Part shown: one piece after another, positions 4,758 to 28,694 of the stretch
How positions within the stretch are numbered: position 1 is the stretch's first letter
How the letters are laid out: every line of letters begins with the position of its first letter
Source of the DNA: Acidobacteriota bacterium
GTDB taxonomy: Bacteria > Acidobacteriota > UBA6911
Direction: 5' to 3'
Assembly: GCA_016933615.1 (NCBI GenBank)
Contig: JAFGAO010000281.1
Coordinates: 1 to 40,889 of the forward strand
Length of the DNA: 40,889 nt
Made by a program: the position numbers and the translations under genes
The notes under the pieces: generated by a model
Databases searched by the model: none
Seen by the model: only the letters and a program-made list of their open reading frames with translations
Told to the model about the DNA's origin: nothing

Positions 4758-5546
4758 ATGTTACGAGCCATGTACACGGCCGCGAGCGGGATGGAAGCAC
4801 AGCAATTGAACATCGACAACATCGCGCACAATCTGGCCAATATCAATACGAGCGGTTACAAGGTTCGCCGGGCGCAGTTCCAGGATCTTCTGTATCAGAA
4901 CATCCGGCAGGCCGGCGCATCGAACACCGCAACCACGGAGATCCCGGTAGGCACGCAGATCGGCCTGGGCACCAAACTGGCGGCCACCGAAATAATATTC
5001 AGCCAGGGAGATTTCGCCTCGACCAAAAATCCGCTGGATATCGTGATCGAGGGGCAGGGATTCTTTCAGGTTCTGATGCCCGACGGCCAGATCGCCTATA
5101 CGCGAAACGGCAACTTCCACCTCAACCGGGACGGAAATATCGTGACATCGGAAGGAGATCTTCTGGATCCGCAAATCACCATTCCTGAGGACCAGACCGG
5201 CATTACCGTCGGCAAGGACGGGACCGTCAGCGTCATGACCGCGGGCCAGTCCGAGCCGCAGACGGTCGGAAGGATAGAACTGGCTCTTTTCCGGAATCCA
5301 TCCGGCATGGAGGCTGTCGGGAAAAGCCTTTTGCGGCCCACCCAGGCTTCCGGTGAAGCCATTGCGGGGACGCCGGGTGAAAACGGCCTGGGCACCCTGA
5401 TGTCGGGATACGTGGAACAATCCAACGTAAGTGTTGTGGAAGAGATGGTGAACATGATCATCAGCCAGCGCGCTTACGAAGCCAACTCCAAGGTCATACG
5501 GACCTCGGAAGAAATGTTCAATCAAGCCAATAACGTAATACGGTAA
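4758..5546 (+). CDS. flgG: flagellar distal rod protein FlgG
   Basis: FlgG forms the distal rod that crosses the periplasm. The 262-residue length matches the family. It opens MLRAMYTAASGMEAQQLNID with HNLANINTSGYKVRRAQFQD. The mid-domain has the typical TKNPLDIVIEGQGFFQV and GQIAYTRNGNFHLN, and it ends with SGYVEQSNVSVVEEMVNMII plus QRAYEANSKVIRTSEEMF. The SD is AGGAG in TTAGGAGCCTCTATG. The gene ends 8 bases before the inverted-repeat element at 5555. Confidence 0.97.
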   Translation: MLRAMYTAASGMEAQQLNIDNIAHNLANINTSGYKVRRAQFQDLLYQNIRQAGASNTATTEIPVGTQIGLGTKLAATEIIFSQGDFASTKNPLDIVIEGQGFFQVLMPDGQIAYTRNGNFHLNRDGNIVTSEGDLLDPQITIPEDQTGITVGKDGTVSVMTAGQSEPQTVGRIELALFRNPSGMEAVGKSLLRPTQASGEAIAGTPGENGLGTLMSGYVEQSNVSVVEEMVNMIISQRAYEANSKVIRTSEEMFNQANNVIR

Positions 5547-5554
5547 GGGCTTTC

Positions 5555-5793
5555 AATGAAGCAAGTTCCGAATTCTCTCCTCACCCGTTACCCAGTTCGC
5601 AGTGAAGCGACTCGGCTCGCGGCAGGATTTCCGCGAGATACATCCTGCGCCGCCGGTCGCCCCCTCACCCCTTTCCACATCCACCGGGAGGAAAAGCAAC
5701 CGCTTTGTACCGAACTTCCGGGCAGGTCTTGTCCGCCACGCAGTTTTATCCACACCAGGTTGGGTGAGGGGAGAATTCGCAACTTGCTTCATT
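5555..5793 (+). repeat. 239-bp MITE-like element with 32-bp terminal inverted repeats
   Basis: Positions 5555-5586 and 5762-5793 are inverted copies of each other, 30 of 32 bases matching; both begin AATGAAGCAAGTT from their outer ends and end CCTCACCC inside. The interior is non-coding. It contains a second C-rich CCCCTCACCC run near 5660 and a small dyad (GCAGGAT...ATCCTGC near 5621-5649). There is no transposase gene. Size, long terminal repeats and intergenic position suit a miniature inverted-repeat element. No clear target-site duplication was found, so the insertion mechanism is open. The element lies across the 5' end of flgA, and the flgA frame reads straight through it. Confidence 0.75.
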
Positions 5794-6752
5794 CCGTCCG
5801 CTATCCGGTGACAGCGGCTGTCCTTTTCATGGTGATGATCCAGGGACTTTACGGCGTCGAAAGCGTCCGGATCCGGTTGATGGAAAGGGCTCATGTCAAC
5901 GCCGGGAAGGTCCTATTAAAGGATATCGCCTCCCTGGACGGCAAACATCCGGATTCAATCGGAACAATCGAAAACCTTCCCGTCGGCGATGCTCCCGAAT
6001 TCGGAACCGTCGCTACGTTCAGCCGCCATCAGATCGAAAAGATTATAAAGCGGGCGGCTCGAGCGCCTGAAATCAAGTGGACGGGAGCTCCGATCGTTCA
6101 AATCCGGCTTCGGAGCAGGGAGGCAAAGGCGGAAGAAATCGCGCCCTTGCTCAAGGATATTCTGGCGGCTGCCACGCCATGGCGGGATCCCGAAATCGAG
6201 ATACTCTCAATCAAAAATCCGGAAGAGATCGAGCTTCCGTATGGGGTATTCGACTTGAGGATCTCCCGGCGATCCCCGGTTCTCGGCAGGGGGCGGATAC
6301 TGGCTCCCTTCGATATCGTGCGGGAAGGCAGGATCCTGGCCTCCTTCTGGGTGACCGCCGACGTTCGCGTCAGGGCTGAAATACTGGCTGCGGTGAAAAA
6401 TATTCCCTACAGAAAAAAAATTGATGCGGACGACATCGATTCTGTCCTGACGGAGATCGAAGATCTGGATGCCGCATTCCTGAGAGACCCCGGCGAAGTC
6501 ATAGGCAAAATTTCGAAACGGAGTTTTTCTCCGGGCGATCCCCTCACCCGGGACTCTTTCGAGAAGCCTTTCCTTGTAAAAAGCGGGGACACCGTGAACC
6601 TACGCCTGGAGAGAAGTGGGCTGGTCGTGAACTCCCAGGCCAGGGCCGAACAGGACGGGCGGCTCGATCAGGTTATCCGGGTGCGAAATCTAGAATTTTC
6701 AAGCGTCCTGAAAGCAAAAGTGACGGGGCGCGGACAGGTGGAAATACCGTGA
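5784..6752 (+). CDS. flgA: flagellar basal body P-ring formation protein FlgA
   Basis: FlgA is the periplasmic chaperone for P-ring (FlgI) assembly. The open frame runs from an ATG at 5556, but its first ~75 codons are the inverted-repeat element. A signal-peptide-like segment follows at once (VRYPVTAAVLFMVMIQGLYG). The TTG at 5784, about ten bases after GAGGGGAG supplied by the right repeat arm, would give a 322-residue protein beginning with that signal peptide. GTG 5808 or ATG 5829 are alternatives. The mature part has RIRLMERAHVNAGKVLLKDI, an SAF-type domain beginning ILAAVKNIPYRKKIDADDI, and the C-terminal FlgA signature LVKSGDTVNLRLERSGLVV with GQVEIP at the end. It overlaps flgH by 4 bases. 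The start is uncertain; the identity is good. Confidence 0.88.
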   Translation: MLHSVRYPVTAAVLFMVMIQGLYGVESVRIRLMERAHVNAGKVLLKDIASLDGKHPDSIGTIENLPVGDAPEFGTVATFSRHQIEKIIKRAARAPEIKWTGAPIVQIRLRSREAKAEEIAPLLKDILAAATPWRDPEIEILSIKNPEEIELPYGVFDLRISRRSPVLGRGRILAPFDIVREGRILASFWVTADVRVRAEILAAVKNIPYRKKIDADDIDSVLTEIEDLDAAFLRDPGEVIGKISKRSFSPGDPLTRDSFEKPFLVKSGDTVNLRLERSGLVVNSQARAEQDGRLDQVIRVRNLEFSSVLKAKVTGRGQVEIP

Positions 6753-14571: not shown

Positions 14572-16548
14572 TCAAAACGATAGGGATCCTATCTGGCTGT
14601 TCAGGGAAGACATGGTCACGTTCATCAAACGGAGGGCTTCATCGGCTTTCTGATACTGGGCGTACAACAGAGCTTCCCGTGTATCCAAAAGAGTCTGATA
14701 TGCTTCGATCCGGTCCGTAATCCCGCGTATGTTCCGGCTGAGCCCGTCGGTCGCACTGTGGATCGGCCCCGTGAGCGGATCGGTGATCCCCTCGAGGACG
14801 CCGTGAAGGTTGAGCAGAACGCTGGATCCTTCCACCCCTTCGGATTGAGGAGCCAGCGTAACGCTTCCGTAACCGCCTGTGGTCGTCTGGGACAGGGTGA
14901 GACTCAGCCCCTCTTCGGGACGTCCGGCTGCGCCGGTAAGAGTCAGGCCGTTTCCGACTGCGCCGTTGCCGCCGATGGTTCCTTCAATATCCGTTCCGAT
15001 GCCCGTAACGGGCGTTGTTCCGAATCCGGTCGTTCCGGCGGAAGCGTCCCTGTCGGAAACCACGCGGATATCGCAGGCGCTGCCGTAATCATCCGTGGTA
15101 ATCCGGATCCTTGCGCTTCCGTCATCTGCGGCGGTCACGTTCATTCCCTGCTCCGTCAAGGCCGCGTTGATTCTGGAAAGGACCGTTTCGAGATCGTCCC
15201 CCGCAATAAGGCTGACAACGGCACTGGATGTTCCGGATTCAATGGTGAGAGTTTCGTCGTTGGCAAGGGTCGTGACCGCCTGGGTCCCGGTCGCGGCAGC
15301 CTGCTGGGCCAGGGCGGTTATTTCCACCGCATAAGTCCCCGCCTGGGTCGCTGCCGTTCGACCGATATAGGTTACCCTGTTGTCGGTGACGGTGACGCCG
15401 CCTTTGGGTGTCCCGTCTCCCAGAAGAAGCGCCGCAACGTCCGTGAAGTTGTCGGCCAGAGCTTCTCGAAACTTTGTTTCGTCCAGGGCCAATCCCCCGT
15501 CGCGGTTGAAATTGAGGCCGATCTGGCTCGTGACGCTGAATGCCGTATACTGGTTCCGAACGGACTGAAGCACCTGCTTCTGCAGGCTGCTCTGTATGCT
15601 CCTGAGGGTGGCGTCCCCCGAGAGCACTCCCGCGCTTTCCGTGGTCGTATTGTAATGAAATTGCGCATTGATAAAGGAGCTGACATCATTGTACGCGGCG
15701 ATGAGCTCCTCGAGGGAATCCACAATGGAATCGATATCCGTTTCCAGGCCGATGCGCACATCGCCCGCGGTCTCCCGTTTCAAGGTAAGGGTCACTCCGT
15801 CGATGACATCGCTGATCGTGTTCGTGCTCTTGGTGATCGCAACCCCGTTGACCGTGATTTGGGCATCTTCCGCCGACTGCATTTCCACGATTCCAAGCGT
15901 CTGACCGCCGGACAGGTTGTCCGTTACGGTGTAGGCGTTTTCCGTTCCGGCGTCGTCGGCCGTAATCAGCAGCCGGTAGGGGCTGGCGGAACCGTCGTTG
16001 ATGAGCGTTGCGGTGACGCCGGCGCCGGCCGCGTTGATGGCGTTGCGCACTCCGCTGAGAGTGTTGTTCGTGGCGTCGATTGTTATGGTGACCGGACCAT
16101 TGCTCCCGGTCGTGACGGTCAGGGTTCCGGTGCCCGTTTCGACGGATGTGGCATCGAGGAAATTCGCGGATGCCGACGATTGGGCGCGCGCCAGGTTGTT
16201 TACGCTGATGTCGTAGCTTCCGCGGGCAGATACGCCCGTCGTGACCGCCGAAATTGCGTCCTCGTCGGCGGAGGATACCTGACAGGCGGAGAAAATGCTC
16301 GCCGCAAACCTTTCGGAAAAGGAGTAGGGCGCCTGAAGCGGCACCGTGCCGCCGCCGTAAAGAATTCCGTTAACCTTGCTCTCCAGCGTGGAAAGCTTGG
16401 AATTGAGACTTTGAAAAGCGCTAATTTTGCCCTGCAGCGTTTTGGTTTCGCTCTCCATCCGGCGTATCGGGGCTGATTCGATGTACATCAGGTTTTGTAC
16501 GATGCTTTCAACGTCGATGGCGCTGTTCAGTACGTTAACGGAGCCCAT
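14572..16548 (-). CDS. fliD: flagellar filament cap protein FliD
   Basis: FliD is the pentameric cap (hook-associated protein 2) that folds exported flagellin at the filament tip. The 658 residues are long but acceptable. The N-terminus shows IDVESIVQNLMYIESAPIRR, then SFSERFAASI in the early domain. Flagellin-hook IN-type segments follow (GSYDISVNNLARAQSSASAN; GVAITKSTNTISDVIDGVTL; NPG-less SYGDGT-like motifs). The FliD C-domain includes VDSLEELIAAYNDVSSFINA. The C-terminal helix YAQYQKADEALRLMNVTMSS ends GSLSF. It precedes fliS by 29 bases on the minus strand. Confidence 0.95.
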   Translation of the reverse strand: MGSVNVLNSAIDVESIVQNLMYIESAPIRRMESETKTLQGKISAFQSLNSKLSTLESKVNGILYGGGTVPLQAPYSFSERFAASIFSACQVSSADEDAISAVTTGVSARGSYDISVNNLARAQSSASANFLDATSVETGTGTLTVTTGSNGPVTITIDATNNTLSGVRNAINAAGAGVTATLINDGSASPYRLLITADDAGTENAYTVTDNLSGGQTLGIVEMQSAEDAQITVNGVAITKSTNTISDVIDGVTLTLKRETAGDVRIGLETDIDSIVDSLEELIAAYNDVSSFINAQFHYNTTTESAGVLSGDATLRSIQSSLQKQVLQSVRNQYTAFSVTSQIGLNFNRDGGLALDETKFREALADNFTDVAALLLGDGTPKGGVTVTDNRVTYIGRTAATQAGTYAVEITALAQQAAATGTQAVTTLANDETLTIESGTSSAVVSLIAGDDLETVLSRINAALTEQGMNVTAADDGSARIRITTDDYGSACDIRVVSDRDASAGTTGFGTTPVTGIGTDIEGTIGGNGAVGNGLTLTGAAGRPEEGLSLTLSQTTTGGYGSVTLAPQSEGVEGSSVLLNLHGVLEGITDPLTGPIHSATDGLSRNIRGITDRIEAYQTLLDTREALLYAQYQKADEALRLMNVTMSSLNSQIGSLSF

Positions 16549-16637
16549 ATCCTGTCCGGTTTCTTCCCGTTTTTTTCAAGTTGAGCCGCAATCGGAAGTT
16601 TGATCTCATTCTCGATTGCATGCAGATCCGATGCTTC

Positions 16638-16658
16638 CTATATTGTCCGGACATATAG
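16638..16658. repeat. near-perfect 21-bp dyad upstream of fliD
   Basis: CTATATTGTCC (16638-16648) is followed directly by GGACATATAG (16649-16658), its reverse complement apart from one extra T. The central TGTCCGGACA is an exact 10-bp palindrome. With no loop it is unlikely to be a terminator and looks more like an operator. It lies in the 206-base gap between maf and fliD, ~90 bases before the fliD start. Confidence 0.45.
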
Positions 16659-16754
16659 CCGGTCCGGAAACATTATGCTTATCGGCAGGGGCCGCCCGGC
16701 GGAATAGCGGTTTATACAATATTTATGGGCCTGAACCGGAAGGCGGCCGCCGCA

Positions 16755-18605
16755 TCAGCAGGAGAGATTTTTTTGAATTTGTTTCAGCGATTTTTCGACT
16801 TCGTCGAGGGCTTGACCGACAGTGGTCAGGTACTCCGAGTAAAGATTCTTCAATTCGAGAATCGCCCCCCCCTTGTCGGGACGGTCGTCCCATCGCTCGC
16901 GCCGGCGTAGAAAGGTCACATTCCCCATCTGGTTCAGGCAGTCCAGAAGCGGCGCTATATTTTTGTTCTCGTATATGTTTTGTTTTGTGTTTTCCAGTTT
17001 TCTGCGGAGATCTCCTCCCGGAAAATTTACTTTCGGGCTGCAGAGCCGGAATCCTTGAGCCAGTGTCTTTCTTACGGAATGCGCTTCCGCTAACAGGGGG
17101 GAAATATCGGTGCGGACGCCGCTCGGGCTGTCTTCCCTCACCGCCTCAAAAATTTCATGAATTCGGGCATCCAGAGGCAGACGTCTGGAGCAGTATCGGT
17201 ATATCGCTTCCTTCAAAGTGATAATTTCCACGTCGCTCTTAAGAATGCCCCCTTCGGTTGCGTTGATGAAACGCACTCCCGGATTGCCCTTTATTTCCTT
17301 AAGGAACCAGTTGCAGTAGGCCGTCAGCTTGTCGGTAGTTTCTATCGGGCGCCCGAAAATATCCTCGGATTGGACCGTCTTGCGTGAAGCTCTCAAGTCT
17401 TCGAGCTTTTGATGCCAAAGTTCGGGATCGGAAATGCCGCCGAACCATTCCCGGTCGAAATGAAGTCCGGAGCAGTAGATTCTCCCTCCCGTATGGGCGA
17501 GATCCTGTCCCGTGAAAATTACCGGATTGCATCCGAGCAGGAGGGCGAAATCCAGCGCCATGGTCGCAACCGAGCCCCAGGCGCGCAGAACGCCCTTTTC
17601 CCCGATGATTCCGGGAAGGGAACCCAGGGAAGAATGATCGTACGTGCAGGCGACGACGCGGCCCTCGAATTGATTGAAAACTTCCGGATAGGCTGTCGCC
17701 TCCGCCACTACGAGGGCGCGGCCGATGGAAGCCCCCTCCAAATGGCGGAAATTGAGCAGATAAGGGTCCCCGGTCAGGATGAAATGGGGGCGGATTCCCG
17801 CCGCTGTAAGCGGCTTCAGTGCCGTATCTGTGGACAAAAGAAGCGCCCGGTCCCCGCATCCCCGTAATTCATGAATATTCTTGTCCAGGGAAGGGCCTGC
17901 GGAAACAATGACGGCCGGCGCATCTTTGAATTTCCCCGAGAACCGCATCACACCGGGGGCCAGAGACGCTTTGCGGGCGTTGCGCACGAAGTTGTCCAGG
18001 AAAGTCCTGGATTTTTCCACCAGCGTGTTGATGTCCGTGAAAATCTGAAATGTTTGGTTCCGGATAATTTCCGCTGCGTTTTTAAACAATCCGGGATTCA
18101 GGGAGACCGAGGGAAGATGGGTCAGATACGTATTCCGTCGGGCCCCGACGGGATCGAAAAACCGCGTCCACTGTTCCGCAAGCTCCGGACCGTCCGCGGG
18201 CCATGCAAAGTGCAGGTGCGGCAGCGCGAGAATCCCGCCCAGATCGCGCGCTTCAAAAGACGCTTTCAGTATTTCGAGGTCCGATTCGACGATGAAATAG
18301 TGGTTGCGAAGATCCGGGTGTTTTTCAATCAGGGCATCCAGAAGGTACCCGAGCCCGAAACCCAGCAATACAAAGTAATCGGATCCCGAGCAGTCCGTTT
18401 TATCCAGGGCCCGGCGTGCTTCCGTGAGGGGTTCGTACCGGCTGTGCAGCGAGGTTTCGGCTCCCCCCCTTTGATACGTTGCCGTGGGAATGCCGCGCCG
18501 GGATTCGAATATGCGCACGCTTCTGTTGACCGTGCCCTGGAGAAGCCGCGCCAGTTCCGGCTGCCGTTCGGTTAGAAGAGCTATATTGGATGCGAAATAA
18601 TTCAA
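16755..18605 (-). CDS. Maf-type flagellin glycosyltransferase (MptE-like / DUF115 family)
   Basis: This 616-residue protein belongs to the motility-associated factor (Maf) family, which transfers nonulosonic acids from CMP-sugars to Ser/Thr of flagellin before export. Visible features: an N-terminal region with DYFVLLGFGLGYLLDALIEK (~76-95); the DUF115/MptE-like core with KDAPAVIVSAGPSLDKNIHE, LLSTDTALKPLTAAGIRPHF and ILTGDPYLLN; then ALLLGCNPVIFTGQDLAHTG; and a helical C-terminus (~480-616). It lies directly downstream of two flagellin genes and shares the locus with a nonulosonate cassette. Acceptor sites cannot be predicted from sequence alone. Confidence 0.88.
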   Translation of the reverse strand: MNYFASNIALLTERQPELARLLQGTVNRSVRIFESRRGIPTATYQRGGAETSLHSRYEPLTEARRALDKTDCSGSDYFVLLGFGLGYLLDALIEKHPDLRNHYFIVESDLEILKASFEARDLGGILALPHLHFAWPADGPELAEQWTRFFDPVGARRNTYLTHLPSVSLNPGLFKNAAEIIRNQTFQIFTDINTLVEKSRTFLDNFVRNARKASLAPGVMRFSGKFKDAPAVIVSAGPSLDKNIHELRGCGDRALLLSTDTALKPLTAAGIRPHFILTGDPYLLNFRHLEGASIGRALVVAEATAYPEVFNQFEGRVVACTYDHSSLGSLPGIIGEKGVLRAWGSVATMALDFALLLGCNPVIFTGQDLAHTGGRIYCSGLHFDREWFGGISDPELWHQKLEDLRASRKTVQSEDIFGRPIETTDKLTAYCNWFLKEIKGNPGVRFINATEGGILKSDVEIITLKEAIYRYCSRRLPLDARIHEIFEAVREDSPSGVRTDISPLLAEAHSVRKTLAQGFRLCSPKVNFPGGDLRRKLENTKQNIYENKNIAPLLDCLNQMGNVTFLRRRERWDDRPDKGGAILELKNLYSEYLTTVGQALDEVEKSLKQIQKNLSC

Positions 18606-18742
18606 AACACCCTCAACGGTGGAATCAACGGTCAGCCCGTTTTCTAAGCCGGGAATGCTCGAAATGACCGAAAAAATGAAATCGGTCGAAGGAACAAATC
18701 AGAATATATCCATACATCCACTATTCGGATCAACATCATTCT

Positions 18743-18784
18743 GAAAAAGAAAAAGGCGCGCTTTTTCCGAAAAAGCGCGCCTTT
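18743..18784 (-). terminator. intrinsic terminator of flagellin 1
   Basis: AAAGGCGCGCTTTTTC (18752-18767) and its exact reverse complement (18769-18784) flank one base, giving a very stable 16-bp inverted repeat. On the minus strand the stem is followed by a T-rich run (TTTTTCTTTTTCAG). It lies 20 bases after the flagellin stop and separates flagellin from maf, as expected for a highly expressed gene. Confidence 0.9.
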
Positions 18785-18804
18785 GAACATACGCTGGTGC
18801 TGCG

Positions 18805-19665
18805 CTATAACCGAAGCAGGTTCAGAACATTCTGACTGTTGGAATTCGCCTGGGCCAGCGCGGCGATTCCCGACTGTGCCAGGATCTGGTATTTCGTGAG
18901 GTTCGAAATTTCGGCGGCGATGTTGGCGTCGCGCATGTTGGATTCGGCGGCTTGCGTATTTTCCGCCTGGTTCTGCAGAACGGCGACCGATGCCTGCAGA
19001 CGGTTGATGCCGGCGCCGATATCCGCCCGCATTCCCGATACGGCGTTCAGGGCGTCTTTCAGGACCGTCATCGATGCAGGGACGTTGGCCACGTCAGCGA
19101 GGTCCACGGTCGTGAGGTTCTGGCCTCCGATGTCGGTAACCGTATCACCGGAGGTGGTGATGGATGCGATGGTGACGGCGATGGAACTGTTGTTCGACAT
19201 GTCGCCGACGAAAACGCTCAAAGCGCCGTTTATACCCGAACCGGATACGAAAAGCGACTGGCCGTTGAAGTTAGTCTGGGAAGCGATCCGGGCGATTTCC
19301 GCCTCTATGGCCGAAAACTCCGTATCGAGCGAGGCGCGGCCGGTCGCATCGACCGTTTCGGTTGCGGCTTCCTCGGCCAGCGTGACCGCGCGCGTCAACA
19401 GGTTGCTGATTTCCTGCAGTGCGCCGTCGGCGATCTGGGCCACGCCGATTCCGTCGTTCGCGTTCCGGACAGCCTGGTTGATGGCAAAGACGTTCGCCCT
19501 GAGGCTGTCGGCAATCTGCAGGCCCGCGGCGTCATCGGCCCCGGTGTTGATCCTTCTGCCGGACGACAAGCGCAGCAAGGTTCGGGAAAGATTGACATTG
19601 TTTATGTTCAACTGGTTTTGCGCATTGATGCCAGCGACGTTGTTCAGAATACTGAATGAACCCAT
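18805..19665 (-). CDS. fliC: flagellin 1
   Basis: A filament subunit of 286 residues. The conserved N-terminal D0/D1 region (MGSFSILNNVAGINAQNQLN; LLRLSSGRRINTGADDAAGL; VRNANDGIGVAQIADGALQE) and C-terminal region (AAESNMRDANIAAEISNLTK; QILAQSGIAALAQANSNSQN; VLNLLRL) are intact. The surface-exposed central domain is very short (~140-200). AAGGAGG lies just before the ATG. It has its own sigma-28-type promoter and a strong terminator, indicating independent high expression. Its leader contains GGA motifs (CGGATTC, AAGGAGGAA) that could bind CsrA. It is a tandem paralogue of flagellin 2. Family certain; the symbol is generic. Confidence 0.95.
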   Translation of the reverse strand: MGSFSILNNVAGINAQNQLNINNVNLSRTLLRLSSGRRINTGADDAAGLQIADSLRANVFAINQAVRNANDGIGVAQIADGALQEISNLLTRAVTLAEEAATETVDATGRASLDTEFSAIEAEIARIASQTNFNGQSLFVSGSGINGALSVFVGDMSNNSSIAVTIASITTSGDTVTDIGGQNLTTVDLADVANVPASMTVLKDALNAVSGMRADIGAGINRLQASVAVLQNQAENTQAAESNMRDANIAAEISNLTKYQILAQSGIAALAQANSNSQNVLNLLRL

Positions 19666-19800
19666 TTGGAGTTCCTCCTTGAATCCGAGAAAAAAATTCT
19701 ACTCTGCCAGATCATGGCTCTGGCCGCCTCGGCGAGGGGAATCGCTCAGCGTGTTCTTAAAGCCCGGAGGCCGTTTCTTCTTTTTAGGAATACATAAGCC

Positions 19801-19827
19801 GTATCGACCGGCACTCGAAAAACTTTG
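19801..19827 (-). promoter_or_regulatory. sigma-28 promoter of flagellin 1
   Basis: On the minus strand CAAAGTTT (19827-19820), an 11-base spacer, then GTCGATAC (19808-19801). This matches the FliA consensus TAAAGTTT-N11-GCCGATAA at 7/8 and 6/8. The transcript would have a leader of ~130 bases before the ATG, long enough for CsrA control. Confidence 0.8.
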
Positions 19828-20254
19828 CACCTAATTTAAAAATAAATGAGATTTTTTATTTTTTCGTATACCAGGTAAGGGGCGAAAGAAGATTGCCCGA
19901 AGTCGCGCATGATCGATTTTTGCCACGACGGAGGGCGCGAAGGCGTTGGGTTTTTTCCCGTCTGAAAATGCGGGAAAGAGGCGCTGCGGGCACTGGTCCG
20001 GGATAAAGCTTGCCGCGGCTGTTTGCCGGGACCTTGTAGCAGGAAGGGATTTCGTTTGTCGGCCGATTCTCATTGCCGGCACTGCGGATGCGGGCGCGGT
20101 TCACCCCGGGAACGGGGAAAATCGTTGTTCCGGAATCCGGTCTCTAGGCCGGGGAATAATCCGGCGCTGTTGCGGGAGTGGAAGACGGAGCCCCCCCTTT
20201 CCGAAAGCTCCGCCTTCATTCCGCCACTGGAGAATTCCAGGTTTGGGTGAGGTA
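19828..20254. other. non-coding spacer between the flagellin genes
   Basis: These 427 bases between flagellin 2 and the flagellin 1 promoter hold no convincing gene; short open frames on both strands lack SD sites and family features. Near flagellin 2, CGGAGC (about 20188-20193) and GCTCCG (about 20207-20212), within an outer AGTGG...CCACT pair, form an imperfect hairpin that could be the flagellin 2 terminator, though no clear T-run follows. Confidence 0.6.
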
Positions 20255-21115
20255 TTAGATTCCCTGTATCAGACCGAGGATTATTCCTTTCGATGCATTC
20301 GCCTGAGACAGGGCCGCGATCCCGGTCTGCGAAAGAATCTGATACTTGGTGAGGTTCGAGATTTCCGACGCCATATCCGCGTCCCGTATCGTCGACTCGG
20401 CAGCCTGCGAATTCAGCGACTGGTTCTCCATGACGGAAACGGCCGAGAGCAGCCTGTTCATTCCGGCGCCCAGCGTCCCGCGGGCGGAAGCGACGGCAAT
20501 CAGGGCATCCCGGATAACGGGCATGGATGCGGCCGCGCCGGCGTGCGTCGTGAGATCGATCGAAGAGAGGTCCTGGCCGCCCAGATCCGTGACCGTATCC
20601 CCTGATGTCGTGACGGTGTTGAGCGTGATTGCTATGGAACCGGAGCCGAAAATGTCACCGACATAGGCGCTCAGGCTGCCGTTCAGGCCCGCAGTGGTGA
20701 ACAGCTGAACGCCGTTGAAATTGGTCTGCGTTACGATTCTGGCGATCTCGGCCTGGATCTCAACCCATTCCGTGTGCAGGGCCTGGCGCCCGTTGGCGTC
20801 CACTACTTCCGTTGCGGCTTCTTCGGCGAGCGTAATCGTCCGCGTCAGAATGTTGGAGATTTCCGCCAGTGCGCTGTCGGCGATCTGGCCGACACTGATG
20901 CAGTCGTTGCAATTGCGAACGGACTGGTCGAGGGCGCGTACGTTGGCTCTCAGGGTGTCGGCAAGCATCAGGCCGGCGGCATCGTCCGCACCATTGTTGA
21001 TGCGGTATCCTGACGAAAGCCTGGTAATGGTTTTGGTGAGAAATTGGTTGGATATGCCCAGTTTGTTCTGGGCGTAAAGTGCTGCAATGTTGTTTAGGAT
21101 GCTGAAGCTCCCCAT
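20255..21115 (-). CDS. fliC: flagellin 2, with a CxxC motif
   Basis: A second 286-residue flagellin in the same orientation. The start at 21115 (MGSFSILNNIAALYAQNKLG) aligns with flagellin 1; an ATG five codons upstream overlaps the GGAGG ribosome site. D0/D1 regions are conserved (ITRLSSGYRINNGADDAAGL; ISNLTKYQILSQTGIAALSQ), but it ends LGLIQGI in place of the usual leucine-rich LLR-type end. Where flagellin 1 reads RNANDGIGV, this copy reads RNCNDCISV, with Cys69 and Cys72; flagellins normally have no cysteine. It may be a minor or specialised subunit. Its own sigma-28 promoter and a hairpin over the SD lie upstream. Confidence 0.94.
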   Translation of the reverse strand: MGSFSILNNIAALYAQNKLGISNQFLTKTITRLSSGYRINNGADDAAGLMLADTLRANVRALDQSVRNCNDCISVGQIADSALAEISNILTRTITLAEEAATEVVDANGRQALHTEWVEIQAEIARIVTQTNFNGVQLFTTAGLNGSLSAYVGDIFGSGSIAITLNTVTTSGDTVTDLGGQDLSSIDLTTHAGAAASMPVIRDALIAVASARGTLGAGMNRLLSAVSVMENQSLNSQAAESTIRDADMASEISNLTKYQILSQTGIAALSQANASKGIILGLIQGI

Positions 21116-21118
21116 GAT

Positions 21119-21136
21119 GAATTCCTCCATGAATTC
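21119..21136 (-). promoter_or_regulatory. hexaloop hairpin over the flagellin 2 ribosome site, candidate CsrA site
   Basis: On the minus strand GAATTCATGGAGGAATTC folds into a 6-bp stem (GAATTC with GAATTC) closing the hexaloop ATGGAG. The loop displays GGA and overlaps the SD of the flagellin 2 start at 21115. A second GGA (GTAGGAACA) lies about 35 bases further upstream in the leader. The arrangement resembles the two-site CsrA control of the Bacillus subtilis hag leader. Confidence 0.6.
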
Positions 21137-21260
21137 TTCGGGAGTTAATGGGTTGTTCCTACGGGTAATCTTTCAGGCATCCGTGCCCAAAACCTGCAGG
21201 AATTCAGTGGCGTAAAGCAGGCCGGCTTTCATTTTCCTGCCGTCCCAGCTTCCGCCTCTC

Positions 21261-21287
21261 ATATCGTCCGGCCTTCAGACAAGTTTA
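21261..21287 (-). promoter_or_regulatory. sigma-28 promoter of flagellin 2
   Basis: On the minus strand TAAACTTG (21287-21280), an 11-base spacer, then GACGATAT (21268-21261). Each hexamer-plus matches the FliA consensus at 6 of 8. The geometry and the distance to the start (~140 bases) copy the flagellin 1 promoter. Confidence 0.72.
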
Positions 21288-21318
21288 GTTCCAAAATAAA
21301 TTTATTTTTTGGAGTGTC

Positions 21319-21334
21319 TGGCACTCAAGTTGCT
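21319..21334 (+). promoter_or_regulatory. sigma-54 promoter for the glycosylation region
   Basis: TGGCACTCAAGTTGCT is an exact match to TGGCAC-N5-TTGCW, with GG (21320-21321) and GC (21332-21333) 10 bases apart. It lies 50 bases before the 209-aa gene at 21384 and is divergent to flagellin 2, whose sigma-28 promoter is 32 bases away. It excludes the in-frame ATG at 21309 as a start for that transcript. Confidence 0.88.
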
Positions 21335-21383
21335 TGGGAGTACGTTGGACGAAATACAATCGTTCGTTATCGACGAGGTATCT

Positions 21384-22013
21384 ATGGCTAGGTTCTACGT
21401 GAATGAAAGGGAAATCGTCCCGCCGCCGGGCGCCACATCCTTTGAGGAAATCCTGAGGCATGTGGACAAAGCCCAGCTTCCGCCGAATTCCGTCGTCCGG
21501 AACGTAAACGTCGACGGAAATCCTATCCTCGAGGACAACATGGATAAAGATCCGGCCGCGACAATCCGGCAGATGGAAAAAGGCGACAAGGTGGAAATCG
21601 TCACCGGCACGGTTGAAGAGATCGTGAGCGACTCCCTGCGGGAAGCTTTCGCCTACCTGGAACGCGCCGGGGAAGGCATCCCCGCGCTGGCGCGGCGCTT
21701 CCAGGCGGATCCCGGACCCGAATCGTTCCGGGCGCTGGTTCAGCTATACGAAGGTTTTTACTGGTTAAACCTTCTGCTCTCGAGGCTCGCGGAGAATTAT
21801 GAAATCGTTCTGGACGACCTGCCGGTGCAGGGAGCGCCTGCGGCGGAGCATAACAGGAGGTTTCTTTCGGTTTTGAAACAGCTTCTGGACTCGCAGGAAA
21901 AAGGGGATTGGGTACTGATTTCCGATCTTCTCGAATATGAGATCGCGCCCATGGTCCCGGTGTGGAAAGAAATGTTTCAAATGATTGCCGATAAGGCCCC
22001 GGCTGCGCGGTAA
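21384..22013 (+). CDS. unknown 209-aa protein behind a sigma-54 promoter
   Basis: The ATG at 21384 follows CGACGAGG and lies downstream of the predicted transcription start. The product begins MARFYVNEREIVPPPGATSF. Residues 1-75 look like a small beta-rich or ubiquitin-like module (short strands, IRQMEKGDKVEIVTG). The rest (~80-209) is predicted helical (IVSDSLREAFAYLERAGEGI; FYWLNLLLSRLAENYEIVL; EKGDWVLISDLLEYEIAPMV). No signal peptide, membrane segment or known domain was recognised. It is the first gene of the unit leading into the sugar cassette (23-base gap) and is divergent to flagellin. A role in filament assembly or modification is inferred from context only. Confidence 0.82.
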   Translation: MARFYVNEREIVPPPGATSFEEILRHVDKAQLPPNSVVRNVNVDGNPILEDNMDKDPAATIRQMEKGDKVEIVTGTVEEIVSDSLREAFAYLERAGEGIPALARRFQADPGPESFRALVQLYEGFYWLNLLLSRLAENYEIVLDDLPVQGAPAAEHNRRFLSVLKQLLDSQEKGDWVLISDLLEYEIAPMVPVWKEMFQMIADKAPAAR

Positions 22014-22036
22014 TTTCCGCCGGGAGTCGTAAAAAT

Positions 22037-23122
22037 ATGTCGAAAAGTGCCAAAACCCTGACAGTTCCATCCGGTATTTTGTCTGCGATGGACAGAATCT
22101 GCCTTTGGATACGGACCGGCTCCGGACCTCAAATAGGATTCGGGCACCTGCGGCGAACCATGGTTCTGGCCAGATTCCTGAACGATTGCTGTCTCCCGCT
22201 GTTTCTTGTCGATCCCGCCGACAGCTGGAGCCGGAAACAGCTCGCGGATCAGGGCGCGGCTTTCGTATGCGAACGGCTGGCTTCCGTCTGGTCGCACCTC
22301 CCCGAACCGAAAGCAATCCTCCTAGACACGCGTGAAACCGAAGGGCTCTTTGATTTCGTCGGGGAAGCGAAAAAACGGCATCTGACCGTGTTCAGCATCC
22401 ACGATCTGGGACTCAATCCGCTTCCGTCCGATATTGCAATCGACGGAAGCATCGCGCCGGATATCTCCGGATTTCCCAACCCACGAACGGTCTTTTACAC
22501 CGGCCCCGACTACATGGTTCTGGACCCTGTATACCGGCTCCTGCACCCGAAAGGCAAATGTATCGGCGATCGCATGCGCACCGTTTTCGTCAATTTGGGC
22601 GGAGGTAATTCCGGCTCTTTCTACAGGAAAATCCTGGATGGATTGGCGCTTTGGAACCGGGGAATCGAAGTCCTGGCCGTCGCTGGTTTCTCCGGCTGGG
22701 AAAATGAGAGTTTTTCCCGCAAAAATCGCCCCTCCCTGAATGTTCAATGGATTTCGGAGCATATCGGCGCTCACTGTTTCCGGGCGGATTTGGCGATTAC
22801 GGCCGGGGGGATCGCGGCCTACGAGGCCCTCTGTACGGGGACCCCCCTCATGGCCCTGTCTTATGACCGGTATCAGGATGCCACGATTCGCGCGCTCGCC
22901 GATGCCGGAGCCTGTGCGCACTTGGGCCCAGGTGAAAATCTCAGCGCTTCCGACCTGCCAGGGATCCTGGAGCGCTTCGAATCCGATCATGTCGGAAGAC
23001 GCACTTTTTCTTTGAACGGAAGAAAAATCGTCGACGGCCGGGGTGTGGAGCGTGTTGCCGGCATCTTCAGAAAATCGATGGGCGCGCGGGCCAATGGATC
23101 TCTGATGGAGGACGCCGGATGA
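22037..23122 (+). CDS. PseG/SpsG-like nucleotide-sugar hydrolase or glycosyltransferase-fold protein
   Basis: This 361-residue protein has a GT-B-like fold of the PseG/SpsG family. PseG removes UDP from the 2,4-diacetamido-trideoxyhexose intermediate before condensation by a NeuB-type synthase. The N-terminus shows GSGPQIGFGHLRRTMVLARF (~28-47), the family's G-x-GH-x-x-R element. The C-terminal half has VFVNLGGGNSGSFYRKIL, then ADLAITAGGIAAYEALCTGT (~254-273), the nucleotide-sugar binding signature. The ATG at 22037 follows CGGGAG; an in-frame ATG at 22088 has no SD. It overlaps the HAD gene by 4 bases (ATGA). The exact substrate is not determined. Confidence 0.8.
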   Translation: MSKSAKTLTVPSGILSAMDRICLWIRTGSGPQIGFGHLRRTMVLARFLNDCCLPLFLVDPADSWSRKQLADQGAAFVCERLASVWSHLPEPKAILLDTRETEGLFDFVGEAKKRHLTVFSIHDLGLNPLPSDIAIDGSIAPDISGFPNPRTVFYTGPDYMVLDPVYRLLHPKGKCIGDRMRTVFVNLGGGNSGSFYRKILDGLALWNRGIEVLAVAGFSGWENESFSRKNRPSLNVQWISEHIGAHCFRADLAITAGGIAAYEALCTGTPLMALSYDRYQDATIRALADAGACAHLGPGENLSASDLPGILERFESDHVGRRTFSLNGRKIVDGRGVERVAGIFRKSMGARANGSLMEDAG

Positions 23123-23796
23123 TCAGGGCCCTGATATTCGACCTGGACGACACTCTATACAGGGAAATGGACTTCGTCGAGAGCGGGTATCGCGCAGTCG
23201 CCCGGTATGTTTCCGAAAGGACCGGGCGCGATTTCCACACGCTCTACCGCATGATGGTGGATACGCTGCACACGGGGGGCCGATACCGGGTCCTCTGCGC
23301 CGTGAAAGAAAAATGCCCTGCGGATTCCATCGCCATCAAAGACATGGTTTCGGTATACCGCCGACACAGTCCCGAAATACGCCTCTATCCGGGTTACGCC
23401 GGACTTTTGAAGGCACTGTCCGAACGGTACCGTATGGGAATCATTACGGACGGCATCCCCGAAGTTCAGGAAAGAAAAGTACGGGCTCTTCGACTGGAAG
23501 GATTGATGGACCGTATCCTCTATACGTGGAAATACGGGGAGGAGAAACAGAAGCCGCACCCGCATTCCTTCAGGCTTATGCTGCGGTGGCTTGAAATCCC
23601 TGCCGAAAACGCCCTGTATGTCGGCGATAATCCGATGAAGGATTGCGCCGGCGCTAGCGGAGCGGGCATGAAGTTCGCTCAAATCAGCCCTCCGGCTCGA
23701 GACGCGGAAAAAGAGAAAAACGCGCCGGGAAGGAAACCGGAGTACGTCATCAAATCGCTTTTTCAACTGCCTCCCTTACTGCAGGAATTGATTTGA
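23119..23796 (+). CDS. HAD-superfamily phosphatase
   Basis: A 225-residue HAD hydrolase with all four motifs: I, FDLDDTLYRE (~7-16, nucleophile D8 and acid D10); II, MGIITDGIP (~111-119); III, K-containing QKPHPHSF (~143-150); IV, ALYVGDNPMKDCAGASGAGM (~170-189). A helical cap lies between I and II. In this cassette it could dephosphorylate a nonulosonate-9-phosphate or a sugar phosphate precursor, as in the pathways for sialic acid and KDN. That is inference. It is coupled by ATGA overlap to the PseG-like gene and followed one base later by the NeuB-type gene. Confidence 0.87.
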   Translation: MIRALIFDLDDTLYREMDFVESGYRAVARYVSERTGRDFHTLYRMMVDTLHTGGRYRVLCAVKEKCPADSIAIKDMVSVYRRHSPEIRLYPGYAGLLKALSERYRMGIITDGIPEVQERKVRALRLEGLMDRILYTWKYGEEKQKPHPHSFRLMLRWLEIPAENALYVGDNPMKDCAGASGAGMKFAQISPPARDAEKEKNAPGRKPEYVIKSLFQLPPLLQELI

Positions 23797-23797
23797 A

Positions 23798-24937
23798 ATG
23801 AAAGAAATGGACATTCTCATAGATCAAAACGTTATCGGACCGGGATCCCGCGTCTTCGTTATCGCCGAAATCGGAATCAATCACGATGGCGACGTCGGCC
23901 GGGCCATGAAAATGATCGAGGCGGCGGCCGAAGCCGGCGCGGATGCGGTGAAATTCCAGAGCTTTCGCGTGGACAGGCTGCTGATCCCGACCCAGAACCG
24001 CTATGCGCAGCAGGCGGATTCCGTGGAATCCGCCTACCAGATGCTGCGGCGCTGCGAGTTGAGCTGGGAGGATCAAGTCAAGTTAAAGAAGCACGCGGAT
24101 GAGAAGAATATCTTGTTTCTTTCCACTCCATTCGATGAAGAAACCGTGGATTTCCTGGATTCGCTCGGGGTCCCTCTTTTCAAGATCGCGTCCTCCGATA
24201 TCACGCATGTCCCCCTGTTGCGCCATGTCGCGTCCAAGGGGAAGCCCATTTTCATGTCCACCGGCATGTCTTTTCTGAGCGAAGTGGGAGATGCCCTGCA
24301 GGTTCTCCGGTCTTCGGGAGCGAAGGAAATTCTGCTCATGCACTGTGTCTCGGCCTACCCGACCCCCCCGCGGAACATGAATCTGCGTTCTCTCAAGACG
24401 CTGCAATCCCATTTCGAACTGCCCGTCGGGCTTTCCGATCACAGTGAGGGAATCCTGTTCCCGCTGATTGCCGTGGCCCTGGGCGCGGTCGCCCTGGAGA
24501 AGCATTTTACGCTCGACAAGAACGCGCCCGGAGCGGATCACAAGTGCAGCATGGACCCTAGAGATTTGGGGGAACTTATCCGCTGCCTCAGGGACGTGGA
24601 AGCCGGCCTTGGAGACGGCAGGAAGAGGCCGTCCGATATAGAGGAGGAGGGAAGGCTGCTGGGGCGGCGCAGCATAGTCGCCGCCGTGGATATCCGAGCC
24701 CGTGAAACAATTGCGCCGTGGATGCTTTCCTTCAAACGCCCCGGCAGCGGACTGGAACCGCGGTATAAGGATAAAATTACGGGCATGATAGCCCGGAGAA
24801 ACATAGGCAAAAACACCATTCTGCAGTGGGAGGACCTTGCACCGGCCGAATCCCCGGAAACCGTGTATGAAAATACCTTCATGGAGCAGGGTGCTGCCTC
24901 AGCAAGCCGGCACGCTCTGAAGAAACAGCATGCGTGA
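23798..24937 (+). CDS. NeuB-family nonulosonate synthase
   Basis: This 379-residue protein belongs to the N-acetylneuraminate/legionaminate/pseudaminate synthase family, which condenses phosphoenolpyruvate with a six-carbon amino sugar. Signatures are VFVIAEIGINHDGDVGRAMK (~23-42), DAVKFQSF, FLSTPFDEETVDFLDSLGVP, FKIASSDITHVPLLRHVASK, ILLMHCVSAYPTPPRNMNLR, GLSDHSEGILFPLIAVALGA and EKHFTLDKNAPGADHKCSMD. A C-terminal SAF/antifreeze-like domain (~300-365) completes it. Sequence alone does not separate NeuB, LegI, PseI and SpsE types. AGGAA precedes the ATG. The last 8 bases overlap the ATP-grasp gene. Confidence 0.92.
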   Translation: MKEMDILIDQNVIGPGSRVFVIAEIGINHDGDVGRAMKMIEAAAEAGADAVKFQSFRVDRLLIPTQNRYAQQADSVESAYQMLRRCELSWEDQVKLKKHADEKNILFLSTPFDEETVDFLDSLGVPLFKIASSDITHVPLLRHVASKGKPIFMSTGMSFLSEVGDALQVLRSSGAKEILLMHCVSAYPTPPRNMNLRSLKTLQSHFELPVGLSDHSEGILFPLIAVALGAVALEKHFTLDKNAPGADHKCSMDPRDLGELIRCLRDVEAGLGDGRKRPSDIEEEGRLLGRRSIVAAVDIRARETIAPWMLSFKRPGSGLEPRYKDKITGMIARRNIGKNTILQWEDLAPAESPETVYENTFMEQGAASASRHALKKQHA

Positions 24938-25934
24938 AATGAATATATTGATTACGGCTGCCAGCAGGCGGGTGCGGTTGATCCAGGCGTTTGTGAATGC
25001 CCTGGCGCGTCTTGGATTGCAAGGCAGCGTTATTACAACGGACATGAACCGGTACAGTCCGGGCCTCTATTTCGGAACCAGGCACTACATGGTACCCCTC
25101 ACGACCGACGGGCAGTACATTCCGATCATCAAGTCCATATGCTTCAAGGAACGGATCCAGCTGCTGATTCCCACGATCGACGACGAGCTGCCGCTCTTCG
25201 GACGTTATCGAAACGACTTCAATATCATGGGGATACGGGTCGCGGTTTCGGCCGAGAGCACGGGACTGGTCTGCAACGACAAATACGCCTCCGCATGCCT
25301 GTTGCGCGGGAAAGGGATTCCTTTTGCCGAATCCTGGCTTCCGGAAGATCTCGACTTTTCCAGACTGCGCTATCCCCTGTTTATAAAACCGCGGCAGGGT
25401 CGCGGAAGTGTGGGCGCCTATGCCATAAGAGACGAAAACGAATTAAAATTTTTCCTATCCTACATAGAGAACCCCGTCGTGCAGGAATATCTCCAGGGAA
25501 GGGAATACACAATCGATCTCCTTGCTGATTTCGATGGCAGGATTATCAGCGTCGTGCCGCGGGAAAGAATGGTGGTCCGTTCCGGCGTTACCGACCGCGG
25601 GCGGACCCTGTTTCACCAGGGGATGATCGATGTGGCCCTGCGAACGGCCGAAGCGCTGGATATACGCGGGCCCGCCAATATCCAGGTCAAAATGAAAGAC
25701 GACAGGGTCACGGTGTTCGAGGTCAACCCGCGCTTTTCCGGAGGCATCCCCCTGACCATAGCCTCGGGCGCGGATTTCCCTGCATGGCTCATCGAGATGA
25801 GTTGCGGGAAGGACGTGCCTCCACAAATCGGGAAATTTACCCGCAACCTGGTTATGACCTGCTACGAAAGCGCGCTGTTCCTTCGAGATGAAGCCTGCGG
25901 GGAAAAGGCGGTTGAAGCGGTGCAGGGATCCTGA
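24930..25934 (+). CDS. ATP-grasp ligase, CPSase/PylC-like, in the nonulosonate cassette
   Basis: A 334-residue ATP-grasp enzyme. The N-terminal domain starts MNILITAASRRVRLIQAFVN with a Rossmann-like fold (ITTDMNRYSPGLYFG). The ATP-grasp core has NDKYASACLLRGKGIPFAES (~112-131), the phosphate loop LFIKPRQGRGSVGAYAIRDE (~149-168), VQEYLQGREYTIDLLADFDG, and the metal-binding FEVNPRFSGGIPLTIASGAD (~265-284). Such enzymes join a carboxylate to an amine or thiol through an acyl-phosphate. In this setting it may modify the nonulosonate or an amino substituent, which is inferred. ATG 24939 is an alternative start. It is not a carbamoyl phosphate synthase; the true carB is at 35163. Confidence 0.83.
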   Translation: MREMNILITAASRRVRLIQAFVNALARLGLQGSVITTDMNRYSPGLYFGTRHYMVPLTTDGQYIPIIKSICFKERIQLLIPTIDDELPLFGRYRNDFNIMGIRVAVSAESTGLVCNDKYASACLLRGKGIPFAESWLPEDLDFSRLRYPLFIKPRQGRGSVGAYAIRDENELKFFLSYIENPVVQEYLQGREYTIDLLADFDGRIISVVPRERMVVRSGVTDRGRTLFHQGMIDVALRTAEALDIRGPANIQVKMKDDRVTVFEVNPRFSGGIPLTIASGADFPAWLIEMSCGKDVPPQIGKFTRNLVMTCYESALFLRDEACGEKAVEAVQGS

Positions 25935-25995
25935 AATTGCTGCGAACGCGGGCATCGGCATTGCGGGACTCCGGAAAGCATTCGGGTGGAAAGCC

Positions 25996-26709
25996 ATGAG
26001 AACAGTTATCCTTGCAGGAGGAAAGGGAACGCGACTCGCCCCCTACACGACCGTTTTTCCCAAACCCCTGGTCCCCATCGGGGAACGTCCCATACTCGAA
26101 ATAATTGTGCGCCAGCTGGTGCGGCAGGGTTTTGGAGACATTCTCCTGTCCGTCGGGCACCTGGGGGAATTGATCGAGGCTTATTTCCAGAACGGGCACA
26201 GAAACATCCCGGGTTTGCGGCTCCAGTACTACAGGGAGTCCCACCCGCTGGGAACCGCGGGCTCGCTGGCGGTGATTCCGGGGCTCGAAGAAACATTCCT
26301 GGCCATGAACGGAGATATACTCACGACTCTCGACTTCAACGCACTGGTCCGGCATCACCGCCAACAGAGATCCTGTTTGACCATCGCCATGCACAGGAAA
26401 GAAGTCCCCATCGATTTGGGGGTTCTGGAAACAGACGGCGGCGGAGCGCTGCTCTCTTACAGCGAGAAACCGAAATACAGTTTCGACGTCAGTATGGGGA
26501 TCTACGTGTATGAGCCCAGGGTTCTCAAGTACATACCTGCGGGCCGTTACATGGATTTTCCCGATCTGGTCCGGCTCCTCCTGGAGATGGGGGAGAAAAT
26601 ATCGGGTTACCGTTCGGACGATTACTGGCTCGATATAGGCCGCAGGGAGGACTATGAGCTTGCACAGGCGGATTTCGCATCCAGGGCTTCAGAATTCCGG
26701 ATCGCCTGA
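25996..26709 (+). CDS. sugar-1-phosphate nucleotidyltransferase
   Basis: This 237-residue enzyme has the NTP-transferase fold: MRTVILAGGKGTRLAPYTTV (signature G-G-x-G-T-R-L), then FPKPLVPIGERPILEIIVRQ, FLAMNGDILTTLDFNALVRH and DYWLDIGRREDYELAQADF at the C-terminus. It resembles glucose-1-phosphate thymidylyl-, mannose-1-phosphate guanylyl- and PtmE-type transferases without the CBS pair of PtmE. The ATG at 25996 follows GGTGGA and gives the canonical N-terminus; an in-frame ATG at 25888 lies inside the previous gene. It probably activates the hexosamine precursor, with GDP or UDP unresolved. It overlaps the aminotransferase gene by 56 bases. Confidence 0.87.
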   Translation: MRTVILAGGKGTRLAPYTTVFPKPLVPIGERPILEIIVRQLVRQGFGDILLSVGHLGELIEAYFQNGHRNIPGLRLQYYRESHPLGTAGSLAVIPGLEETFLAMNGDILTTLDFNALVRHHRQQRSCLTIAMHRKEVPIDLGVLETDGGGALLSYSEKPKYSFDVSMGIYVYEPRVLKYIPAGRYMDFPDLVRLLLEMGEKISGYRSDDYWLDIGRREDYELAQADFASRASEFRIA

Positions 26710-27874: not shown

Positions 27875-27899
27875 CCCGGATCCGGGCACCGGGGCGGAG

Positions 27900-28694
27900 A
27901 TGCCGGGGCCGGTTCTTGCGTTTCTGCAGGCGCGCATGGGAAGCACGAGGCTGCCTGGAAAAACGCTCATGACGCTGCAGGGCCAAACCCTGCTCGAGAG
28001 GGCTGTACGGCGGCTGCGTGCGGCTCCCATTGTCGATGAAGTGGTAGTGCTGACCACCGTCACGGCGGTGGACGATGTCATAGAACGGGAATCCCTGAAA
28101 CTGGGCGCCCCCGTGTATCGGGGGCCTGAGCAGGACGTCCTGAGAAGGTTTCATGAAGCCGCGGAAAAATACAATCCATACATCGTAGTGCGAGCCACGG
28201 CCGACAATCCGTTGATCGATATCGGCTCCATCGGGAGGATAGTCCGGGTATTGAATTCGGACCTGCTGGATTTCTGTATGGAACTGGACCTGCCCTATGG
28301 CGCCGCAACTGAAGCTTTGCGCGCCGGTGCGCTCCGCAGGGTGCACGCCCAAGCGCGCTTGCCCCGGCATCGGGAACATGTCACCCTGTACATGAAACAA
28401 TATCCGCATTTATTCAGGGTGTCCTACCCGAAGCCGCCCGAAATTCTGCGCCGTCCCGAGGTCCGTTTGACCGTAGATACGATTGAAGATTTTCGCCAAA
28501 TGGAACGCCTAATCGGTCAATTGCCAGAAAGGGTCCCGCCCGCGCCGCTTGAGGCGTATCTCGCTCTGACGCCAAGCGGAGACGGTCCCGAAGGAATCCG
28601 CCGGGACGACCCTGCGGGAGGTTTTTCCGGGATAGGCGCGCTCATACGGGATATACCCCGCGGCTTGCGGCAGCCCGACGCATCCAAAACGTAG
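27900..28694 (+). CDS. SpsF-like cytidylyltransferase (CMP-nonulosonate synthesis)
   Basis: A 264-residue protein with the NeuA/KdsB/SpsF cytidylyltransferase signature right at its N-terminus: VLAFLQARMGSTRLPGKTLM (CTP loop), then LLERAVRRLRAAPIVDEVVV, VYRGPEQDVLRRFHEAAEKY, and VVRATADNPLIDIGSIGRIV (metal site). EVRLTVDTIEDFRQM follows near residue 200. The ATG at 27900 lies 25 bases after the aminotransferase and puts the CTP loop at the usual distance; ATGs at 27825 and 27849 would add an unrelated leader. It should make the CMP-sugar used by the Maf transferase. It is the last gene of the cassette. Confidence 0.85.
   Translation: MPGPVLAFLQARMGSTRLPGKTLMTLQGQTLLERAVRRLRAAPIVDEVVVLTTVTAVDDVIERESLKLGAPVYRGPEQDVLRRFHEAAEKYNPYIVVRATADNPLIDIGSIGRIVRVLNSDLLDFCMELDLPYGAATEALRAGALRRVHAQARLPRHREHVTLYMKQYPHLFRVSYPKPPEILRRPEVRLTVDTIEDFRQMERLIGQLPERVPPAPLEAYLALTPSGDGPEGIRRDDPAGGFSGIGALIRDIPRGLRQPDASKT

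Follow-up and report, generated by a model that had tools for sequence, protein, structure and literature searches.

Comparative evidence for a conserved structured RNA with a long closing helix in the translated 5' region of flgA in a single family of Acidobacteriota

Comparison of eleven related loci shows that positions 5556 to about 5793 of the window, the whole 40,889-nt stretch of Acidobacteriota DNA analyzed in this work, evolve as a conserved structured RNA with a long closing helix, P1, embedded in the translated 5' region of flgA in a single family of Acidobacteriota. The inverted repeat at the flgG/flgA junction is the closing helix of this conserved folded RNA and not a jumping element, and we are highly confident that the RNA structure itself, as represented by P1, is real. 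A preliminary description of this DNA had reported terminal inverted repeats of 32 bp, and an inverted-repeat search recovers exactly these, as two arms of 32 nt which are 94% complementary (30/32) and lie 175 nt apart (Table 1). Several further points of that description were borne out: the flgA frame begins at an ATG within the left arm and is uninterrupted from 5556 to 6752, downstream of the right arm there is a hydrophobic signal segment, modeled as a helix over residues 71-94, and GAGGGGAG ends ten bases 5' of the TTG at 5784. The view of a discrete, arm-bounded stretch which forms the 5' end of flgA and places about 75 residues ahead of the signal segment is likewise supported.

Table 1. 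Features of the flgG/flgA junction, in coordinates of the window.
Feature	Position	Strand	Basis or remark
flgG	4758..5546	+	stop 9 nt 5' of the flgA AUG
flgA start codon AUG	5556..5558	+	in 11/11 homologues; one codon later in L014 and L016
P1 5' arm	5555..5586	+	inverted-repeat search and covariation
P1 3' arm, the internal complementary sequence (flgA codons 69-80)	5762..5793	+	inverted-repeat search and covariation
P2 hairpin, predicted	5607..5660	+	alignment and folding; partial support
CCGCGAGA in P2	5631-5638	+	counterpart is CCUCGAGA in L010, L012, L013, L015 and L018
Pyrimidine-rich joining segment CUCACCCCUUUC	5664..5675	+	alignment
Possible P3 hairpin, CCGGGAG / CUUCCGG	5684..5721	+	by eye in the alignment
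3' segment CGCCACGCAGUUUUAUCC	5734..5751	+	well conserved in L009-L013, less so in the remaining homologues
GAGGGGAG, purine-rich, Shine-Dalgarno-like, paired within P1	5766..5773	+	alignment
UUG, candidate start of the preliminary description	5784..5786	+	kept in 9/11
Signal/anchor helix, residues 71-94 of the long FlgA	5766..5837	+	structure model
FlgA periplasmic part and stop codon	5838..6752	+	Pfam ChapFlgA PF13144 at residues 275-397; model

Folded as RNA, positions 5541-5805 reach -112.3 kcal/mol (z = -6.6), a stability equaled by none of 200 shuffled sequences, and across all 11 loci the fold of the whole element has a z score between -2.8 and -7.7. For P1, scored as 26 pairs in 11 sequences, 95.5% of the 286 cells are paired. 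Changes on both sides of a pair were detected in eight of the 26 pairs (shuffle mean 4.3, with 6 of 500 shuffles reaching eight) and in 14 cells, against a shuffle mean of 5.0 and with none of 500 shuffles reaching 14; controls with slid partners gave at most three such pairs and five such cells. Counting further pair types proved a weaker measure, as 26 of 500 shuffles reach the observed value. Among the cells that are not Watson-Crick there are 32 G-U, five A-C and eight other combinations; this excess of G-U over A-C points to RNA of the sense strand, since it is not expected of a DNA palindrome or of RNA from the opposite strand. Covariation of a helix that tolerates G-U on one strand is the mark of structured cis-acting mRNA elements; it is found here for P1 only, with partial evidence from the interior. 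The sequence conservation of the arms exceeds the need of a simple lock, and the arms stay almost fixed while FlgA identity among the homologues goes down to 32-57%.

The structure of the interior is much less certain than that of P1. Folded alone, the interior has a z score below -2.5 in only four loci (L015, L017, L018, and L019), the other seven falling between -1.2 and +0.5. For P2, compensatory changes were counted within two pairs of homologues, using structures derived from the same two sequences that were compared and hence biased towards pairing: between L017 and L019, 14 of 23 pairs are the same, five differ on one side, four on both sides and none is broken; between L015 and L018 the corresponding numbers for 13 pairs are eight, four, one, and none. 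The possible hairpin P3 is absent from the structure of lowest predicted energy for the window sequence. The loop of P2 contains the self-complementary hexamer CUCGAG in five of the 11 homologues, where the window has CGCGAG, and to judge from its sequence this hexamer could make kissing or dimer contacts. The pyrimidine-rich joining segment is identical in L009, L010, L012, and L013, shows one change in L011 and is not so kept in the other six. By inspection its CUCACC could pair with the right arm too; a switch of the right arm between the left arm and CUCACC was considered and set aside; the complementarity, again by inspection, is good in about six of the 11 loci.

The distribution of the element was addressed first within its own genome, an assembly of 3.6 Mb in 298 contigs that is 82% complete. 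Beyond the element and its two arms a DNA search of this genome returned only three short matches (E 0.4-0.75), an arm-pattern scan found the two arms only, and another such scan added one 16-mer with two mismatches on contig C271. A search for FlgA in 60 genomes, the source genome included, gave a match in 18. Of the 15 family genomes examined, again including the source genome, 11 have FlgA by Pfam, and every one of these 11 carries the same element in the stretch that separates the flgG stop from the FlgA signal segment; these loci (L009-L019) are the comparative set used throughout, and of the ten family relatives nine are MAGs classed as Acidobacteria or Acidobacteriota. Such a fixed association with one gene, here at the flgG/flgA junction, is again what marks a structured cis-acting mRNA element. 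The other four family genomes (G004, G006, G007, and G011) show no FlgA in the Pfam search and no strong match to the element, and flagella may have been lost in them.

Scans at larger scale gave the same picture. The arm pattern matches in nine of the 15 family genomes, extra matches in G008 and G013 being left arms of the same elements, and it fails to detect the elements in G012 and G014, which are evident from the locus comparison. A covariance model built from the 11 family elements (R1) finds one sense-strand place in each of the 11 flgA-bearing genomes with E values of at most 2.3e-49, these being the model's own training sequences, and owing to the arms it also scores the reverse strand of the same places. 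Among the candidates scored (at most 139 per genome), all other R1 matches in the 15 family genomes have E values of 0.03 or worse, and there is no strong match among those scored in the four flgA-less family genomes or in 23 other genomes of the class. Two partial matches in G020, with E of about 0.003 among the candidates scored in 38 class genomes (at most 55 per genome), are taken as chance. No match to the element was found in viral contigs or phages, and a single 28-base match in plasmids (E 0.2) is not credible. Scanning the contigs of one genome per species (84,980 species) with the arm pattern identified 14 stretches, of which nine are in Acidobacteria or Acidobacteriota MAGs, three in Rhizobium, one in Bathyarchaeota, and one in Bacteroidetes. 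Arm duplexes were compared for eight of the 14: those of the five non-Acidobacteriota stretches have -31 to -46 kcal/mol and broken pairing, those of three family members -60 to -66 kcal/mol, and the five are taken as chance or unrelated.

The preliminary description had seen in the inverted repeat a possible miniature mobile element. The terminal inverted repeats of such elements are present (30/32), but the multiple copies at different sites are not, as the element has one place per genome, and neither is the variable occupancy among close relatives, as only more distant outgroups are without it. The search for further copies in the source genome and in the 15 family genomes came back empty and argues against mobility, and the occurrence of the same element at the flgG/flgA junction of all 11 flgA-bearing family genomes is the result which the preliminary description itself had named as speaking for an ordinary 5' region. 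None of the seven outgroup loci (L020-L026; four class and three phylum members) has the element at flgA; a motif check gave one match each in L023 and L026, neither of them at the junction, and no match in the remaining five. In L021 and L022 the flgG end was not located by the script, and these two were judged on the flgA side alone.

A different reading concerns the origin of the stretch and is in our estimate less likely than not: an ancient palindromic insertion, in frame between the flgA AUG and the signal peptide, may have occurred in the family ancestor, been kept, and now be immobile. The seven outgroup loci without such a stretch at flgA are in agreement with this, as is the shape of the stretch, which is bounded by arms, in frame and about 230 nt long. 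Precedent for in-frame palindromes is provided by the Rickettsia palindromic elements, as described in PMC10969869, which are likewise palindromic stretches translated in frame within a protein gene. Continuity of the frame with the host gene is shared by all 11 flgA loci; repetition in many unrelated genes is not, since the Rickettsia elements form repeat families in many genes whereas the flgA element is a single copy in one gene with compensatory evolution. An insertion would also have to be reconciled with the lack of a second copy in the 15 family genomes, with the lack of a convincing source family by arm pattern in one genome for each of the 84,980 species, and with compensatory changes which indicate function and not decay. 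An origin by ancient insertion and a gating role of the folded RNA can hold together.

The start codon bears on a second alternative. The TTG behind GAGGGGAG had been proposed to replace the native translation start; this is not upheld, as the AUG is kept in all 11 homologues and the UUG is lost in L015, where the local pairing is largely kept, and in L018, where it is kept, so that conservation identifies the AUG and not the UUG as the conserved flgA start. One could still suppose that P1 hides GAGGGGAG and the UUG as an internal start, and that opening of P1 would give a short FlgA starting at the signal peptide. The motif GAGG(G/A)GAG is indeed found at the GAGGGGAG site in 11/11 homologues and paired in P1, and the predicted cost of opening the UUG site is 26.1-47.6 kcal/mol with the left arm and 5.8-23.1 kcal/mol without it. 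We nevertheless consider such a start unlikely, because the UUG is gone from two loci in spite of a largely kept P1, because in seven of the 11 loci (five of the nine with UUG) the short form would enter its hydrophobic run without a preceding K or R, as judged by a simple hydropathy window, because a spacing of at least 10 nt is long, and because the open frame and the conserved AUG would be left unexplained. A second in-frame UUG or GUG is present where the right arm meets the interior (5760-5762) in all 11 loci, nine with UUG and two with GUG, and no clear Shine-Dalgarno sequence is visible by eye 5' of it.

From the AUG into FlgA there is no stop codon in any of the 11 loci, and every length is divisible by three. 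Being in frame, the stretch does not merit the earlier term "non-coding", although selection at the amino acid level is not visible. By a Markov estimate the chance of an open interior is 0.15-0.50 for each locus, giving a product of 6e-6 under an independence which does not hold. The other two sense frames have four and nine interior stops in total, with the interior open in seven and three of the 11 loci, respectively; as these frames are also poor in stops, the argument from the open frame is only a moderate one. Differences at codon positions 1, 2, and 3 amount to 0.532, 0.576, and 0.533 in the interior and to 0.485, 0.389, and 0.673 in the body of FlgA. An AlphaFold model from an alignment of ten sequences (the window and nine relatives) has pLDDT below 50 for residues 1-73, followed by the helix and a confident body. 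A functional protein extension of FlgA with incidental RNA pairing is therefore very improbable: the open frame in multiples of three and the presence in most homologues of certain end peptides, SLLT and GEGRIR among them, can be quoted for it, and the missing codon-position signature, the low pLDDT, the compensatory changes, and the G-U bias all oppose it. The pattern of substitution indicates a stretch which is translated yet selected as RNA pairing plus open frame, and not visibly as peptide. The possibility that ribosomes read through the flgG stop and on into the extension was also considered and discarded, since the gap is in frame in eight of 11 loci and not in L014, L016, and L017.

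Two readings at the level of DNA have very little probability. An invertible segment flipping between the arms as a phase-variation switch is barely conceivable: inverted repeats do flank 175 bp in a flagellar operon and the codon-aligned antisense frame is open in the source genome and L012, but the orientation is identical in 11/11 loci, the antisense frame has stops in 9/11, the arms carry a fixed difference (U opposite G in 9/11), and a repeat acting as DNA would not favor G-U over A-C. Equally implausible is a miniature inverted-repeat element that is mobile at present, to which the terminal repeats lend some color and which single copy, fixed position, and covariation contradict.

Some variation in the protein and its surroundings should be recorded. 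FlgA is shortened in L015, L017, and L019 (331, 315, and 306 aa), where much of the first periplasmic part is missing in the alignment and the 5' element is kept. In L018 (genome G010) FlgA is divergent and ends early at the C-terminus (368 aa), and its ChapFlgA match breaks off at position 86 of 122; the early end is possibly a frameshift or an assembly error. Elsewhere in the window, positions 14575-28691 (nine ORFs scanned) hold genes for FliD, an MptE-like protein, flagellin, a NeuB-family protein, and a cytidylyltransferase in one stretch, a gene set which suggests sialic-acid-like glycosylation of flagellin.

As to what the folded RNA does, the reading we prefer is that an internal complementary arm gates the initiation of flgA, such that FlgA synthesis would begin on mRNA still being transcribed or depend on ribosomes arriving from flgG; this proposal seems to us evenly balanced between right and wrong, and we infer the functional role of the gating from folding energies. 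P1 would pair the flgA start region with the internal complementary sequence about 70 codons downstream, and once the 3' arm is transcribed the AUG would be locked. The predicted cost of opening the AUG footprint is 6.2-16.4 kcal/mol without the 3' arm and 17.0-38.6 kcal/mol with it, a rise of 7.3-28.0 kcal/mol that is present in 11/11 loci, and with such a rise new ribosomes should find little access to the folded mRNA. For 23 control starts of the window, which were taken from mechanical ORFs and may include wrong starts, the mean cost is 11.0 and the maximum 21.1 kcal/mol, and a longer transcript adds at most 4.2 kcal/mol. With the full transcript the cost at the AUG is above the highest control in 10 of 11 loci, barely so in L011 (21.6), and within the control range in L014 (17.0); some control starts likewise cost 15-21 kcal/mol.

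Two routes to FlgA would be left. Initiation could take place on nascent mRNA while the polymerase transcribes the 175-nt interior, or ribosomes finishing flgG could melt the foot of the helix and then restart at the AUG. The flgG stop lies 6-12 nt 5' of the AUG in 10 of 11 loci, which would place a ribosome terminating on flgG at the foot of P1; in L017 it is 122 nt away, which makes coupling by reinitiation unlikely there. The interior may tune the folding of P1 or bind an effector. The outcome would be a periplasmic chaperone, FlgA, whose production is tied to fresh transcription and to FlgG synthesis, with a low yield per mRNA.

Parallels exist for several of these features. In Escherichia coli the internal complementary sequence of gnd lies about 70 codons into the gene. 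The ribosome-binding site of gnd is in long-range pairing with this sequence of the same gene, as cited in PMC6728339. The likeness to flgA is that the start region is paired with a complementary sequence in its own coding region, which in gnd inhibits initiation; in flgA this pairing is seen through covariation and predicted folding only. The flgA arms differ from gnd in pairing over 26 bp around a larger and maybe folded interior, and in lying behind an operon neighbor in a stretch without visible constraint at the protein level. Translational coupling by long-range structure or by termination-reinitiation is described for atpHA, rplJL, and motAB in the same source, and there too the upstream stop is a few nt before the start, which stays masked by structure until it is reached by ribosomes (PMC6728339). 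The partner sequence in those systems is often in the upstream gene; in the flgA element it is in the downstream gene.

Before flagellar genes, the RNA motifs Termite-flg and flg-Rhizobiales are found. In PMC2864571 they are candidate structured RNAs with flagellar gene names (RF01729 and RF01736), and the flgA element has no cmscan match to either. At gathering thresholds a cmscan of the window against Rfam 15 matches the element to no family, and a cmscan of the 11 loci that allowed E values up to 10 yielded 10 weak matches, none overlapping the element. In the maturation genes of RNA phages the start is open only on nascent RNA, before long-distance pairing closes. Kinetic control of a start site is also known from type I toxin mRNAs (PMC6733600, for one such mRNA). 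A start that is open on nascent RNA only would be common to these and, by inference, to flgA, which differs in being a gene of a cellular flagellar operon. The literature searched, as far as its texts were accessible, yielded no description of such an element or of a flgG/flgA hairpin.

Start-site locking by internal pairing, in-frame palindromes (PMC10969869), and RNA motifs named after flagellar genes (PMC2864571) are thus already known; the unusual point about the flgA element is that so large an RNA, with a closing helix that covaries, sits entirely inside a translated stretch whose peptide shows no selection. It is conceivable, though we would put it well short of probable, that this represents a new class of cis-regulatory RNA of about 230 nt, located wholly in the translated 5' end of a gene, through which ribosomes read with the peptide as a by-product, and whose folding, possibly steered by a ligand or protein on the interior, would set a one-time window for the start of FlgA on nascent mRNA. 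An element of this kind sits inside an open frame and would be missed by scans restricted to non-coding regions. For this family it offers a test case of a flagellar assembly chaperone which may be controlled by the folding of its mRNA, and of a stretch which appears to be translated yet selected as RNA.
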